Assembly (NCBI GenBank): GCA_011524535.1
Contig: WTKD01000004.1
Coordinates: 1 to 64,000 of the forward strand
DNA: 64,000 nucleotides
DNA from: Spirochaetaceae bacterium
GTDB taxonomy: Bacteria > Spirochaetota > Spirochaetia > WTKD01
Reading direction: 5' to 3'
Under the pieces are notes generated by a model that saw nothing but the letters and a program-made list of their open reading frames with translations, did not search any database and was not told the DNA's origin. Below, piece after piece: positions 30,151 through 54,934 of this stretch. The translations under genes were made by a program, and so were the position numbers. Each line of letters starts with the position of its first letter. Within the stretch, counting starts at the first letter, position 1.

Positions 30151-31491
30151 TCATTCAAGATGATGGCTAATAATTTTATTGTGTAATGTCTTACGACCAA
30201 TCCCCAATATCTCAGCGGTCTTACTTTTGTTTCCGTCATAGGTCATCAGGGTCATTTTGATCATTTCGCGTTCGGCTTCTGCTAGAGTTGATCCAATTCT
30301 CAGTTCAATACTAGATTCTTTTTCATTATTTCTCACCGATGCCGGTAGATCCTCAATTTCTATAATATTTCCCTGACATAATACTACGGCGGATTCAATA
30401 CAATTACGTAGTTCACGAATATTACCAGGCCATTGATATTCTTCCAATGCTGTTCGAGCCTTGCGAGTGATGCCCTCCACCTGTTTGCTGTTTTCTTTGG
30501 CTGCTACAGAGAGAAAATGCGCAATAAACAATGATGTATCTTCTTTTCTTTCTCTCAGTGGCGGAACATGCACATGCACAACATTCAACCTATAGAATAG
30601 ATCTTCTCGAAAACGCCCTTCCTGCACCTCTTTATACAAATCTCGATTGGTAGCCGAGACAATGCGAACGTCTACCACCAACGTTTCTTCTCCACCAACA
30701 CGTTCGAATGATTTTTCTTGCAATACTCTGAGTATCTTTACTTGTGTACTCTGGCTGATTTCCCCAATCTCATCGAGAAAAATAATCCCCCCGTCGGCCA
30801 GTTCAAACCTTCCGCGTTTTCTTTGGATCGCTCCAGTAAAAGCCCCTTTTTCATGACCGAATAATTCACTTTCCAACAAAGATTCGTTCAAAGCAGCGCA
30901 ATGAACCTTCACAAGTGGTTTGTTTTTTCTATCAGAATGTGCGTGTAAAGCATTAACAACCTCTTCCTTTCCAACGCCACTTTCACCAGTAACAAGCACC
31001 GAAGCTCTGGTCAATGCAATCTGCTGTATCGAAATCATGAGGTGCTGCATCGCAGCGCTCTTACCAATCATGATACGATCTTTTTTGTGTTGATTGAGTT
31101 CGTTTACCAATTGTTGATTTTCACGGATAGTTTTGCGAAATTGCAATGCCCTTTTCACGATTAAAGAGAGTCGTTCTAGATTTATTGGCTTGGTGGCAAA
31201 ATCATAAGCTCCCCTCTGCATAGATTCAACGGCCACTTCTACACTTCCAAACCCTGTAAGAATTATGACAGGAATTAATGGGTAATCTTGCAAAACACGT
31301 TTCAGCAATCGATCTCCCGACATACGCGGCATTTTTAAATCTGATAACACAATATCAATATCTTCGACGGCGAGAATATCCAAGGCTTCCTGGCCATCTT
31401 CGGCCTGTACCACATCAAACCCCTCGATTGAAAACGCATCGGCTATGCCGATACGGATGTTTTTTTCATCGTCTACTACGAGAATTTTCAT
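30151..31491 (-). CDS. atoC: Sigma-54-dependent response regulator (AtoC/NtrC family)
   Basis: The 446-residue regulator has a receiver domain (1-120; VVDDE acid pocket, phospho-Asp in VLSDLKMP, conserved Lys in ATKPI), an AAA+ domain (about 140-370) with Walker A GESGVGKEE, the sigma-54-contacting GAFTGA loop, Walker B FLDEIGE and the arginine-rich FREDLFYRLN. A Fis-type helix-turn-helix ends the chain (SKTAEILGIGRKTLHNKI). With GAFTGA intact it should activate sigma-54 promoters. It overlaps its partner kinase gene by four bases. It resembles the AtoC/AtoS pair annotated in Treponema pallidum. Targets are unknown; a sigma-54 promoter occurs in this window upstream of hsp20. Confidence 0.94.
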   Translation of the reverse strand: MKILVVDDEKNIRIGIADAFSIEGFDVVQAEDGQEALDILAVEDIDIVLSDLKMPRMSGDRLLKRVLQDYPLIPVIILTGFGSVEVAVESMQRGAYDFATKPINLERLSLIVKRALQFRKTIRENQQLVNELNQHKKDRIMIGKSAAMQHLMISIQQIALTRASVLVTGESGVGKEEVVNALHAHSDRKNKPLVKVHCAALNESLLESELFGHEKGAFTGAIQRKRGRFELADGGIIFLDEIGEISQSTQVKILRVLQEKSFERVGGEETLVVDVRIVSATNRDLYKEVQEGRFREDLFYRLNVVHVHVPPLRERKEDTSLFIAHFLSVAAKENSKQVEGITRKARTALEEYQWPGNIRELRNCIESAVVLCQGNIIEIEDLPASVRNNEKESSIELRIGSTLAEAEREMIKMTLMTYDGNKSKTAEILGIGRKTLHNKIISHHLE

Positions 31492-32669
31492 ACTGGATGC
31501 CCTTCTTTTTCTATCAATGGATTTGCCGATTGCGGTACGGGAAATAGCAAAGTAACCGAGGTTCCTTCTCCCTTTTTTGAGCGAATTGCAACATCTCCAC
31601 CATGATCTTTTACGATCTTATACACCATGGTTAATCCAAGTCCACTACCCGATTCTTTTGTTGTATAAAATGGCTGGAAAATATTTTTCATCGTTTCAGG
31701 ATCAATACCAATGCCATTATCCACTATAGTGATTCTAATGCTTCCCTTTTCTTCCTTGGTGGTTACTGAAATGCTTGCCTTGCCCTCGGTCATCGCAGAT
31801 ATTGCGTTTTTTAGAATACTGAGTAAGGATTGTTTTACGTATCGATCATCTATCGCAATCTCCGGGAGCATCTCAGCAAGGTCAGATTGCACCCGTATCG
31901 AATGTTCTTCAAACTCATATCGTAAGAATTCGAGAACTTCTATAATCACTGTGTTGATATTCTGCTTCACCGGCTGAATGTTTACAGGACGTGCCGCAAA
32001 AAGAAAATCGACAATTGTTCTATTCAAGCGATCGATTTCTTCGCTGATAACATCTAGATGCTCATAGATAATATTTGCTATTGAAACATCCTGTATCTTT
32101 AATTTTTTTTGAATTAACTGGAGATGAATACTCATAGATGCAAGGGGGTTTTTTATTTCATGCGCAACCCCAGCCGTCAATGTCGTTAACGAAGCAAGAT
32201 GTTCGGCTTGCTGCAACTGAACTTCCTTCATTCTCTTCTCGGTGATATCGCGTATGGTTATCAATGTGCCCACTATCGTTCCATCCTGCACCAGGGGTAA
32301 TACACTGAGTGAAATAATGCGCGCCCCTTTTCTGTCGTTGGTTATGCTAAATTCTTTCTCAATAACGTTTGATTGCTCTGCGACAGCGGTTTTTAGAAAT
32401 AATCCGATATCCGGATCAAGAATCCCCTCTTCTATTGGAATATTGGTTTTTTTGCTCATCGAGATAAGACGCTGAGCCGGTATATTTACAAATTGTATCA
32501 AATGATCTTCAGTCAGAACCACTATTCCCTCCTGCAAGGAATGTAGCACTATTTTCATCTGCTCACTCTCCTGCATCATTTCTATGATGAGGGTCTGTAC
32601 CTGTTCTTTATCTATCCGATGTATGTTTTGAGCAAGTTTTAAAACAAATTTCTTGTCGCTATTTGACAT
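31488..32669 (-). CDS. atoS: PAS-domain sensor histidine kinase (AtoS/NtrB type)
   Basis: The 393-residue cytoplasmic kinase has no membrane segments. A PAS domain (about 40-160) precedes the dimerisation helix with the phospho-His in VAHEIKNPLASM (about residue 174) and an ATPase domain with N box LKNAIS, DNGIGID and GSGLGLTMVY. It should autophosphorylate and pass phosphate to the adjacent AtoC-like regulator. The ATG at 32669 (MSNSDKK) is chosen because it sits 11 bp inside the end of the upstream gene, typical of translational coupling. As a soluble kinase it likely senses a cytoplasmic cue or a partner protein. Confidence 0.92.
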   Translation of the reverse strand: MSNSDKKFVLKLAQNIHRIDKEQVQTLIIEMMQESEQMKIVLHSLQEGIVVLTEDHLIQFVNIPAQRLISMSKKTNIPIEEGILDPDIGLFLKTAVAEQSNVIEKEFSITNDRKGARIISLSVLPLVQDGTIVGTLITIRDITEKRMKEVQLQQAEHLASLTTLTAGVAHEIKNPLASMSIHLQLIQKKLKIQDVSIANIIYEHLDVISEEIDRLNRTIVDFLFAARPVNIQPVKQNINTVIIEVLEFLRYEFEEHSIRVQSDLAEMLPEIAIDDRYVKQSLLSILKNAISAMTEGKASISVTTKEEKGSIRITIVDNGIGIDPETMKNIFQPFYTTKESGSGLGLTMVYKIVKDHGGDVAIRSKKGEGTSVTLLFPVPQSANPLIEKEGHPV

Positions 32670-33816
32670 GCTGGTATACTTCTTCAATAGCGCTACGCGA
32701 AGACACATTACGTTCATGTATGTTCTGCAAAGATTCTTTGCACACCCTTATGAGAGCCGGTAGCTTCGGTGCGTATTTACCGGTGGCCTTGGATGGAAGT
32801 TTTTTTAATATAGCCAGAGAAATTTCTTCTGATTTTTTCAAATCCATGGTATGCATCAGCCTCCAAAATTCTCCATTTTGATTGTCTAATTCTACAAAAA
32901 AAGAATCACATAGCTGTTCAACAAAGGTCGAAGTGTCAGCATCTACCAACAGGGCCTGTAAGGAAGATGCCTCTTTTCCAAAATATGACGTGCTTACCAT
33001 TTTTTGTTCCTCATCACTGCGTGTGGACAAATACAACCAGTGAAATCGAGATGCCAAATTCTGGGCATGTCTAGGGCGTTCTTGGGCCGTGGCGATGATA
33101 TGCAGACTTTCTGGTGGTTCTTCGACAAATTTCAATAACGTATGCATTACAGTCATGGACAATGTGTTTAGGTTTTCAATCAACACAAGTTTGTGCTTGT
33201 TAGATCCCCTGTAATAGCATTGTTCCTGAACCAGCCTGATCGATTCTACGTCTGGGGTTTGATATGCCGCTATGCTATTCACCCCTCGGTGTATGCTTTC
33301 CAGTGAAATAGGAAATTCATCTGATAATGGTGTGTGGAGGCATTCAAATAGCTGTTGATATACCGTCTCTACCTGGCTTTTTCTTTTCTTTGACAAAATT
33401 ATTGTATCAAAACGTTTCAGAAAAATTGCCAATCGCAGCATAACCATCTGTTTTAATGTGTTACGTCTCTTATTATGATTTTCTGTACTTATAGTTTCGC
33501 CATGCGCTTGTGCGCTTGTTCCCTGTGCATTTGCCAACGCTTTCAAAAAATAATGAATATCTTCAAGCGTGCTTCTCTCGCCAATAATGTACAGTTCCTG
33601 ATTTCTAAGCAGTTGGTGCTGAACGCAGCGACGGCATGAACATGCAGCTGCTCCGTGTTCATCGCAATGGAGCAATCGAGCCAATTCAAGCGCCATGGTC
33701 ATTCGAGCACTTAGGGGTGATCCAGAAAACACCAAGGGTGTTTGTATAGTGCCCTGTTTTATGTCTTCTTTTAAATGGCGTTTTATCTCCGCATAGCCAA
33801 CAATGTGGTCAAACAT
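32659..33816 (-). CDS. holB: DNA polymerase III delta'-like clamp-loader subunit
   Basis: The 385-residue AAA+ protein has a Cys-rich zinc module (CDEHGAAACSCRRC, about 51-64) and a sensor-1 region, LLKFVEEPPE, as in DnaX and HolB. The phosphate-loop position reads GSPLSARMT, lacking GK[ST], so it should not hydrolyse ATP; this matches delta' rather than tau/gamma. It helps open the sliding clamp at primer ends. At 385 residues it is longer than E. coli HolB, with an extra stretch around 100-180 not assigned to any domain. The gene ends within the start of atoS and begins six bases past cvpA, in the murG-cvpA-holB-atoS-atoC operon. Confidence 0.82.
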   Translation of the reverse strand: MFDHIVGYAEIKRHLKEDIKQGTIQTPLVFSGSPLSARMTMALELARLLHCDEHGAAACSCRRCVQHQLLRNQELYIIGERSTLEDIHYFLKALANAQGTSAQAHGETISTENHNKRRNTLKQMVMLRLAIFLKRFDTIILSKKRKSQVETVYQQLFECLHTPLSDEFPISLESIHRGVNSIAAYQTPDVESIRLVQEQCYYRGSNKHKLVLIENLNTLSMTVMHTLLKFVEEPPESLHIIATAQERPRHAQNLASRFHWLYLSTRSDEEQKMVSTSYFGKEASSLQALLVDADTSTFVEQLCDSFFVELDNQNGEFWRLMHTMDLKKSEEISLAILKKLPSKATGKYAPKLPALIRVCKESLQNIHERNVSSRSAIEEVYQHVK

Positions 33817-52794: not shown

Positions 52795-53985
52795 TTATTC
52801 TGAAGCTATTGGAGTCAATCTCACAACAACATCTCTATTGTTCTGACCTCTGAGATCTCCATTTGAAGTTCCTATATATAAGCTTCCTCTGTCATCACTG
52901 CCAACCGCACGAATGCGCCCAAACGTTCCTTCGAGCAAAAATTCCTGATCGATAACTCGATCTTCTGTTATTTTCAGCCTAAGCAGGGATTGTCCTCGAA
53001 GATTCGCAACGAATAAATCGTTTGTCCACCAAGGCGCAACCCGAGATGTATAAAAAATGCCTGCACTCGGAGCGGTTGCGGGAGTGTACTCGACCATGGG
53101 GGTCACCATGTTTCTTCGCTCGAGTTTGTGATGTATGATGGGCCATCCAAAATTCTCACCCGGAGAAAGGAGGTTTATTTCATCTCCTCCTCCAGCTCGG
53201 TCATAGCCAGAAGGACCGTGTTCAATGGCGTATACTCGACCCGTCTCTGGATGAACCGCAAGTCCTTGCGGATTCCGATGTCCATAGGTGTAGATTTCAT
53301 TCAGTGCATTTTCATTCTTTATAAAAGGATTGTCACGGGGGACTCTGCCATCACGAGTTAAGCGAATTGTTTTACCATGCAACGTTCCCAAATTTTGAGC
53401 GAGGTCTAAGTTCCCCCTTTCTCCTAGAGAGAATAAGAGGGTTCTATCTGGCAAAAGAGTCACCGCACTACCATAATGTTTATTCGCCCCGACAGGATCA
53501 GCATCATACAGTATAACTTCGTTGGTCCACCCCTCTGTAGTATCGGTAAACCGTGATAGGCGTGTCACTACTCCTTTTCGCGTTTCGGTTGTGTAGACAA
53601 CAAAGAGGATACCCGTATTGCTATAATCTGAACCCAGGGCAATATCCAACAGTCCCCCCTGTCCAACTGCATATATATTCTCTATCGTATGATGTTCTTG
53701 AACGGCAGCTTCTGTTGGAGGGTTTTCTCCGATAGTCACATGCAATACCCTTCCACCCCGCTCAGCAACCATAAGCACATCGCTATTGATTTGTTCGATA
53801 TCACCAACTACATGTAATCCTTCAACAATGACATCTGTTTCAAATAATTGGTCACCAGAAATGGTTCGGGAAACACCGGTTTCCTGCGCTGACAATATCT
53901 GCATTATGCAGAAAAATAATACTAGACTTAAGAAGTGCCAGTTCATTTGTATTTTAGACTTGTACTCAATATTCTTACTAACCAT
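52795..53985 (-). CDS. Exported PQQ-type sugar dehydrogenase (soluble glucose/aldose dehydrogenase family)
   Basis: The 396-residue protein has a signal peptide ending near LSAQE and a six-bladed beta-propeller with segments typical of the family: VAERGGRVLHVT, GGLLDIALG, GHRNPQGLAVHPETGRVYAIEHGP (key residues HRNPQG and EHGP) and NFGWP. Relatives oxidise aldose sugars with PQQ in the periplasm; related proteins without PQQ activity also exist. The start is ATG 53985 or, 13 codons in, 53946; neither has a ribosome-binding site. The longer form gives a better positively charged n-region. No PQQ synthesis genes are in the window. Confidence 0.85.
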   Translation of the reverse strand: MVSKNIEYKSKIQMNWHFLSLVLFFCIMQILSAQETGVSRTISGDQLFETDVIVEGLHVVGDIEQINSDVLMVAERGGRVLHVTIGENPPTEAAVQEHHTIENIYAVGQGGLLDIALGSDYSNTGILFVVYTTETRKGVVTRLSRFTDTTEGWTNEVILYDADPVGANKHYGSAVTLLPDRTLLFSLGERGNLDLAQNLGTLHGKTIRLTRDGRVPRDNPFIKNENALNEIYTYGHRNPQGLAVHPETGRVYAIEHGPSGYDRAGGGDEINLLSPGENFGWPIIHHKLERRNMVTPMVEYTPATAPSAGIFYTSRVAPWWTNDLFVANLRGQSLLRLKITEDRVIDQEFLLEGTFGRIRAVGSDDRGSLYIGTSNGDLRGQNNRDVVVRLTPIASE

Positions 53986-54231: not shown

Positions 54232-54248
54232 TGTGTCAAATTGACACA
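54232..54248. promoter_or_regulatory. Candidate enhancer or operator palindrome
   Basis: TGTGTCAAATTGACACA is a perfect 8-bp inverted repeat around one A. It lies about 158 bp before the expected hsp20 start, a usual distance for a sigma-54 activator site. The cognate protein is unknown. TTGACA inside it could instead be read as a -35 box. Confidence 0.5.
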
Positions 54249-54370
54249 GTATTTTTACCTCGATGAGCTCGATTGCGAGAAAATGACCCAGCCCCATATA
54301 TGACACGGAAGAGAATAATTGGCGAGCGCATCTAACTATATATAACAATTACAGTTAAAGATTTTTTTAT

Positions 54371-54388
54371 TTGGCATGAATATTGCAT
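54371..54388 (+). promoter_or_regulatory. Sigma-54-type promoter of hsp20
   Basis: TTGGCATGAATATTGCAT matches the -24/-12 consensus (TGGCACG-N4-TTGCA). The invariant GG (54373-54374) and GC (54385-54386) are separated by exactly 10 bp. The expected start is near 54398, giving a 27-nt leader with AAAGGAGG. No good sigma-70 promoter competes in this position. Confidence 0.72.
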
Positions 54389-54424
54389 ATACATATATAT
54401 AAGTGATACCAAAGGAGGTAAAAA

Positions 54425-54871
54425 ATGGTATTTACCAAAGTCATAAGTCCTTTTAGAGGACCAGTATTTAGAAAGAATGTTGATGATTTGCTTCACAATA
54501 TGTTTGATTCTCATGGTTTCGATAGCAGTTGTTGCACCACATTTGATTCAGGCATCGATATAGAGGAACGCGATGATTCTTATGTTATGTCGGCGAATTT
54601 ACCTGGTGTAAACGAAGAAGATATAGAGATCACGATTGAAAATAATCGATTAAAATTATCGGTTGAACAAAAAAATGCAGGAAGCGATGAGAACAAGCGG
54701 TACATCCTTCGTGAAAGAAGAGATGTGAAACTTCAAAGAAGTTTTCCATTGGCATCAAATGTTGACGCTGAAAATGTGGAAGCACAGTTTGACAATGGGG
54801 TGCTTGAGGTTGTTGTTCAAAAAAAGGAGGAAGATAAGCCCAAAAAAATTGAATTAAAGAAAAAAAACTAA
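54425..54871 (+). CDS. hsp20: Small heat-shock protein, Hsp20/alpha-crystallin family
   Basis: The 148-residue chaperone has the alpha-crystallin domain at about 38-130 (IDIEERDDSYVMSANLPGV, LRERRDVKLQRSFPL, ENVEAQFDNGVLEVVV) and a C-terminal IEL segment in place of the usual IXI motif. It holds unfolding proteins in an ATP-independent way. AAAGGAGG fixes the start. It is monocistronic, between a sigma-54 promoter and a terminator. The sigma-54 signal is unusual for a stress chaperone, although a sigma-54 promoter has been described for E. coli ibpB. Confidence 0.95.
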   Translation: MVFTKVISPFRGPVFRKNVDDLLHNMFDSHGFDSSCCTTFDSGIDIEERDDSYVMSANLPGVNEEDIEITIENNRLKLSVEQKNAGSDENKRYILRERRDVKLQRSFPLASNVDAENVEAQFDNGVLEVVVQKKEEDKPKKIELKKKN

Positions 54872-54898: not shown

Positions 54899-54934
54899 AA
54901 ATCGAGAGGTCCTTTTGGGCTTTTCGATTTTTTT
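54899..54934 (+). terminator. Terminator of hsp20
   Basis: AAATCGA (54899-54905) pairs with TCGATTT (54924-54930). The stem continues inward with GC and GU pairs to a TTTT loop, and is followed by T residues, 28 nt past the stop. Confidence 0.8.

Follow-up and report, generated by a model that had tools for sequence, protein, structure and literature searches.

Putative sigma-54 control of hsp20 genes in Spirochaetia, with a conserved upstream activator site

The stretch of DNA analysed here, 64,000 nucleotides long and called the window throughout, belongs to the genome of a Spirochaetaceae bacterium (1.42 Mb in 14 contigs, 96% complete). Towards its end it hosts a gene encoding a small heat shock protein, surrounded by the following features:

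54232..54248, no strand assigned: predicted upstream activator site (enhancer) TGTGTCAAATTGACACA, a perfect palindrome with a motif score of 24.0
54274..54290, no strand assigned: possible second, weak activator site TGCGAGAAAATGACCCA, score 9.5, 42 bp from the first
54371..54388, plus strand: predicted -24/-12 sigma-54 promoter of hsp20, TTGGCATGAATATTGCAT, an exact match to TGGCAYRNNNNTTGCW, with the predicted +1 at about 54398
54413..54418, plus strand: Shine-Dalgarno sequence AGGAGG of hsp20, read directly from the sequence
54425..54871, plus strand: hsp20, small heat shock protein of 148 aa (Pfam HSP20, 6e-20)
54899..54930, plus strand: terminator-like hairpin 3' of hsp20, detected by pattern scan

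The hsp20 ATG is located at 54425, and transcripts starting near 54398 would carry a 27-nt leader including the AGGAGG tract. The hairpin found past the coding sequence suggests that hsp20 is transcribed as a single gene. A sequence-only reading of this DNA had assigned to hsp20 a -24/-12 consensus with exact GG-N10-GC spacing, a strong Shine-Dalgarno sequence and a perfect 17-bp palindrome about 158 bp upstream of the predicted start, and sequence, position and symmetry of these elements all proved correct. The spacing within TTGGCATGAATATTGCAT is GG-N10-GC. TGTGTCAAATTGACACA is made of perfectly matching 8-bp arms; measured from its centre, the -24 element is 134 bp and the predicted +1 is 158 bp downstream.

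By pattern search, on which all whole-genome promoter counts are based, only four sequences in the genome fit the strict pattern TGGCAYRNNNNTTGCW; two of them are non-coding, the hsp20 site included. This site, which conforms to the TGGCA...TTGC consensus with GG-N10-GC spacing, is also the best sigma-54 match within the window. Relatives of the same order, suitable for a base-by-base alignment of the promoter, were missing among the genomes compared, and a scan of hsp20 genes in named genomes similarly gave no match; hsp20 promoters have been therefore compared across the class. The kinship of the genome was judged from the named sequences that best match its activator. DNA upstream of 72 hsp20 genes, belonging to 50 genomes and 29 families of Spirochaetia, was scored with a sigma-54 matrix that approximates the known consensus and does not derive from a curated set of sites. 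Sites scoring at least 12 on the coding strand were found upstream of 70 of the 72 genes, a count in which genes of the same genus are not independent, so that the 29 families are the safer figure. Most sites are located 37-60 nt before the start codon. Matches dropped to 0/72 on the opposite strand, and to 1/72 with the reversed matrix. GG-N10-GC is thus kept in relatives, as a functional element was expected to be, and the view that stress chaperones are rarely under sigma-54 does not hold for Spirochaetia, where this arrangement of hsp20 appears to be the norm.

The palindrome proves little when taken alone, and had to be evaluated at the class level as well. TGTGTCAAATTGACACA occurs once in the genome, and any other copy has at least 3 mismatches; near-copies are found in the genome at chance level only, and no second copy within 3 mismatches is present in the window. 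The palindrome would be by itself unremarkable, and its reality rests on a motif independently found upstream of hsp20 throughout the class. A dyad search run without any seed recovered GTCA-N3-TGAC from 18 of the 70 regions; in ten shuffled sets no dyad occurred in more than 9. A 17-bp motif was then seeded from the palindrome and trained leaving out the window site. This motif, TGTGTCA-WWW-TGACACA, is present in 69 of the 70 hsp20 promoters bearing the -24/-12 element, and the window palindrome, excluded from training, ranks second among the 70 with its score of 24.0. When the promoters were split at random six times, 33-34 of the 34 held out exceeded the 5% shuffle threshold. Sites differing from the palindrome at no more than 4 positions number 133, in 68 of 69 sequences, versus 4-11 in shuffled DNA. 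Most hsp20 promoters of the class feature two or three such sites, whose spacing peaks sharply at 40 bp. Ahead of hsp20 the motif reaches 5.7 sites per kb, about a thousand times the density (0.004 per kb) measured over 249 kb of class DNA lying elsewhere. By sequence comparison these sites thus show what is expected of an enhancer: dyad symmetry, location 80-200 bp upstream, frequent repetition and conserved position. The second window site, TGCGAGAAAATGACCCA, is weak alone, because it is only the eighth best motif match in the window; its distance from the first site is about the one usual in relatives. Both elements were found at all three named spirochaete hsp20 loci inspected, one having a weak activator site.

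RpoN is encoded by the genome hosting the window (PF04552, 5.8e-36), and rpoN was found in 59 of 60 genomes. Both hsp20 promoters lacking a strong -24/-12 element come from one Borrelia-like genus (g19), which gene order suggests to be, as we presume, relapsing-fever Borrelia. The three members sampled differ in their rpoN. G041 has an intact rpoN frame of 438 aa, and its hsp20 gene keeps GG-N10-GC. In G018 rpoN is reduced to a fragment interrupted by many stops, and hsp20 has no -24/-12 element; in G058 rpoN is split, and the spacing upstream of hsp20 is GG-N9-GC. Joint loss of rpoN and of the -24/-12 element is what dependence on RpoN predicts. A palindrome resembling the activator site persists in G018 despite the broken rpoN; the loss of the element may be therefore recent, or the site may be reused. 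In this genus rpoN, whole in one member and broken in the other two (loci L364, L362 and L363), lies beside a conserved ptsH-hpf block, about 5 kb from hsp20. An hsp20 gene has been reported in two relapsing-fever species, in a comparison with the Lyme group (PMC2525819). Conservation of the two elements, along with the loss of the -24/-12 sequence where rpoN is broken, strongly supports the control of hsp20 by sigma-54 and an upstream enhancer that had been proposed from the window.

Promoter and palindrome may be read in other ways. TTGGCA agrees with the -35 box in 5 of its 6 bases and is followed, 17 nt downstream, by TATATA, so that the -24/-12 sequence might be a coincidental feature of a sigma-70 promoter, leaving hsp20 under housekeeping control. 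Across the class, however, -10 hexamers at the matching distance are not enriched (21 versus 24.3 expected), while GG-N10-GC is nearly invariant; no sigma-70 promoter was called by a promoter scan at the hsp20 element, and the association of element loss with broken rpoN is at odds with housekeeping transcription. This reading is highly improbable, and has been rejected on account of the missing -10 enrichment. Being located between two divergent genes, the palindrome might rather serve the sorbosone/glucose dehydrogenase gene (52795-53985) found on the other side or, as it scored terminator-like with a T run after it, work as a transcription terminator. Either role is hardly credible for a motif that recurs at similar distance upstream of hsp20 in 69 of 70 promoters of the class, and is nearly absent elsewhere. 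Control by HrcA was also considered, but the CIRCE operator TTAGCACTC-N9-GAGTGCTAA is not found upstream of hsp20: the 72 upstream regions yielded one weak match, with 5 mismatches, and none in the window region.

Two adjoining genes of the window plausibly encode the protein acting at the palindrome and its partner kinase:

30151..31491, minus strand: candidate activator, NtrC/AtoC-like (Response_reg, Sigma54_activat with GAFTGA, Fis-type HTH)
31488..32717, minus strand: histidine kinase gene overlapping the activator gene, predicted soluble product, probable partner (HisKA, HATPase_c, weak PAS)

The first had been singled out from the window as an NtrC-family activator with an intact GAFTGA loop, and both the domain organization and the GAFTGA sequence could be confirmed. 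The protein has to be regarded as AtoC-like only, since it scores 480.7 bits against the NCBIfam AtoC equivalog, below the 714-bit cut-off. The description of its neighbour as a soluble PAS kinase stands in part: no membrane-spanning stretch is present (Kyte-Doolittle maximum 1.53 over 19 residues), while the PAS match is sub-threshold. Full-length orthologues of the activator, 53-63% identical, are found in 58 of 60 genomes, its own included, and the recognition helix IGRKTLH is invariant in the 30 best of them. A homologous kinase gene adjoins the orthologue at most loci in the class. In one relative, a good match to the activator site, TGGGTATATTTGACACA (L312:257-273), is located directly before the kinase-activator gene pair, and could mediate self-control there.

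The genome encodes two strong sigma-54 activators, the 30151-31491 protein and a second AAA+ protein, denoted C7 (G000:C7; L239:2750-4294, minus strand). In family f12 (G011, G036, G055) and in genus g19 no sigma-54 activator other than the window-type orthologue is encoded, its recognition helix is unchanged, and hsp20 is preceded by both the -24/-12 and the activator site in f12 and in G041. Being alone in genomes whose hsp20 control region is complete, the window-type protein is the best candidate. Elements upstream of hsp20 are present also in G057, an 89% complete draft in which no clear orthologue was found.

C7 might alternatively be the protein that recognizes the palindrome at the sigma-54 promoter. 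Its relatives in the same family bear a GAF domain, and its recognition helix, IQRTYLSRL, is a different one. Of the 60 genomes, 35 encode C7; every one of these also has hsp20, and C7 is missing from all 8 genomes without hsp20 (Fisher p 4e-4, uncorrected for kinship); since its presence is nested within hsp20-positive genomes, C7 could contribute to the regulation. Among NCBIfam models NorR fits C7 best, with a score under the cut-off (350.1 vs 476 bits), and NorR sites share a GTCA-N3-TGAC core. C7 was favoured at first on these last two grounds, and was demoted because three genomes with the full control region have only the window-type activator. Moreover, 17 hsp20-positive genomes lack C7, and the activator motif is retained at most of their hsp20 promoters; C7 is missing in f12 and g19, where the window-type protein is alone. 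The assignment of the palindrome to C7 is accordingly unlikely. C7 features GAFTNA in place of GAFTGA (GAFTDA in relatives), and its N-terminal domain no longer scores as GAF, a domain clear in its relatives. The 30151-31491 protein is the simplest reading for the activator of hsp20, most likely the actual one, and C7 could have a helper role.

We favour, with a probability of about 0.82, a model in which hsp20 is transcribed from the sigma-54 promoter by means of an enhancer-bound AAA+ activator, most likely the 30151-31491 protein, switched on by the adjacent kinase. Sigma-54 RNA polymerase would sit in a closed complex at 54371-54388, and the activator would bind a TGTGTCA-N3-TGACACA site whose centre precedes -24 by about 134 bp. 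By DNA looping the bound protein would touch the polymerase and, using ATP, open the promoter. Sequence comparison shows the promoter element, the conservation of the activator site and their link to rpoN through joint loss of rpoN and the element; the identity of this NtrC/AtoC-type response regulator as the activator, the phosphorelay by which the neighbouring kinase would switch it on, and the inducing signal are inferred.

For ibpB of E. coli a sigma-54 promoter is reported next to one recognized by sigma-32. Like spirochaete hsp20, ibpB is a small heat shock gene preceded by a -24/-12 promoter, but it is a single case in which sigma-32 is the main control, whereas in Spirochaetia the -24/-12 element and the activator site are common to the class. 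In a 2025 survey, the sigma-54 regulons predicted for Planctomycetota and Bacteroidota include IbpA-type COG0071 genes (PMC12316311). There too small heat shock genes are predicted to be under sigma-54, but in other phyla; for Spirochaetia the survey names the chaperone-related COG0533, and it gives no hsp20 activator site (PMC12316311). Sigma-54 scores of at least 12 were obtained for 7 of 27 hsp20 loci from non-spirochaetes, the weakest (12.2) in Gemmatimonadetes, and none of the 7 has a convincing copy of the spirochaete activator site. Strong -24/-12 elements upstream of hsp20 were noted at L368, L393, L370, L371, L373 and L388, in Balneolaceae, Chitinispirillales, UBP4, Lentisphaerae and an unassigned bacterium.

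In Leptospira interrogans, much as in the genome studied here, RpoN is accompanied by two activators, one of GAF type and the other NtrC-like, of receiver type. Reported targets of its EbpA/EbpB-sigma-54 systems are an ammonium transporter and lipoprotein genes, and hsp20 is not mentioned among them in the accessible text of the source (PMC12655853). In the Rrp2-RpoN-RpoS pathway of Borrelia burgdorferi a response-regulator activator similarly works with RpoN, the target being rpoS; the accessible portions of the two sources describe neither an hsp20 target nor a comparable upstream binding site (PMC4014564; PMC12655853). Activators of the Borrelia-like genus g19 are, by one-way search, 55% identical to the window protein over their full length, are the sole activators of their genomes and have a kinase neighbour; Rrp2 is thus probably the same orthologue. 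The other strict non-coding -24/-12 site of the genome (L132:1501-1516; G000:C9:2252-2267) is found just before a gene (L132:1528-2319) for a sigma-70-family factor, RpoS/RpoH-like and below every named cut-off, an arrangement recalling the Borrelia RpoN-to-RpoS cascade; a different palindrome, CATAACATGTTATG, and no hsp20-type site, lies upstream. No report of sigma-54 control of hsp20 in spirochaetes was found in the searchable, mostly open-access literature. It is an evenly balanced proposition that Hsp20 of Spirochaetia was ancestrally governed by a sigma-54 circuit whose dedicated enhancer code is TGTGTCA-N3-TGACACA, in copies some 40 bp apart, that the activator is the ancestor of Borrelia Rrp2, and that chaperone control was an original task of the Rrp2 family, the rpoS cascade being a later rewiring.

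Sigma-54 control of stress chaperones is usually deemed an exception. For hsp20 of Spirochaetia it seems to be the usual arrangement, and a control circuit previously seen in scattered cases only appears, from the sequences compared, to be the rule for a whole class. The genus in which broken rpoN accompanies the lost promoter element provides a natural experiment linking the two. The activator site can be written down and tested, and offers a concrete candidate DNA target for a class-wide NtrC-like activator, to which Borrelia Rrp2 probably belongs.
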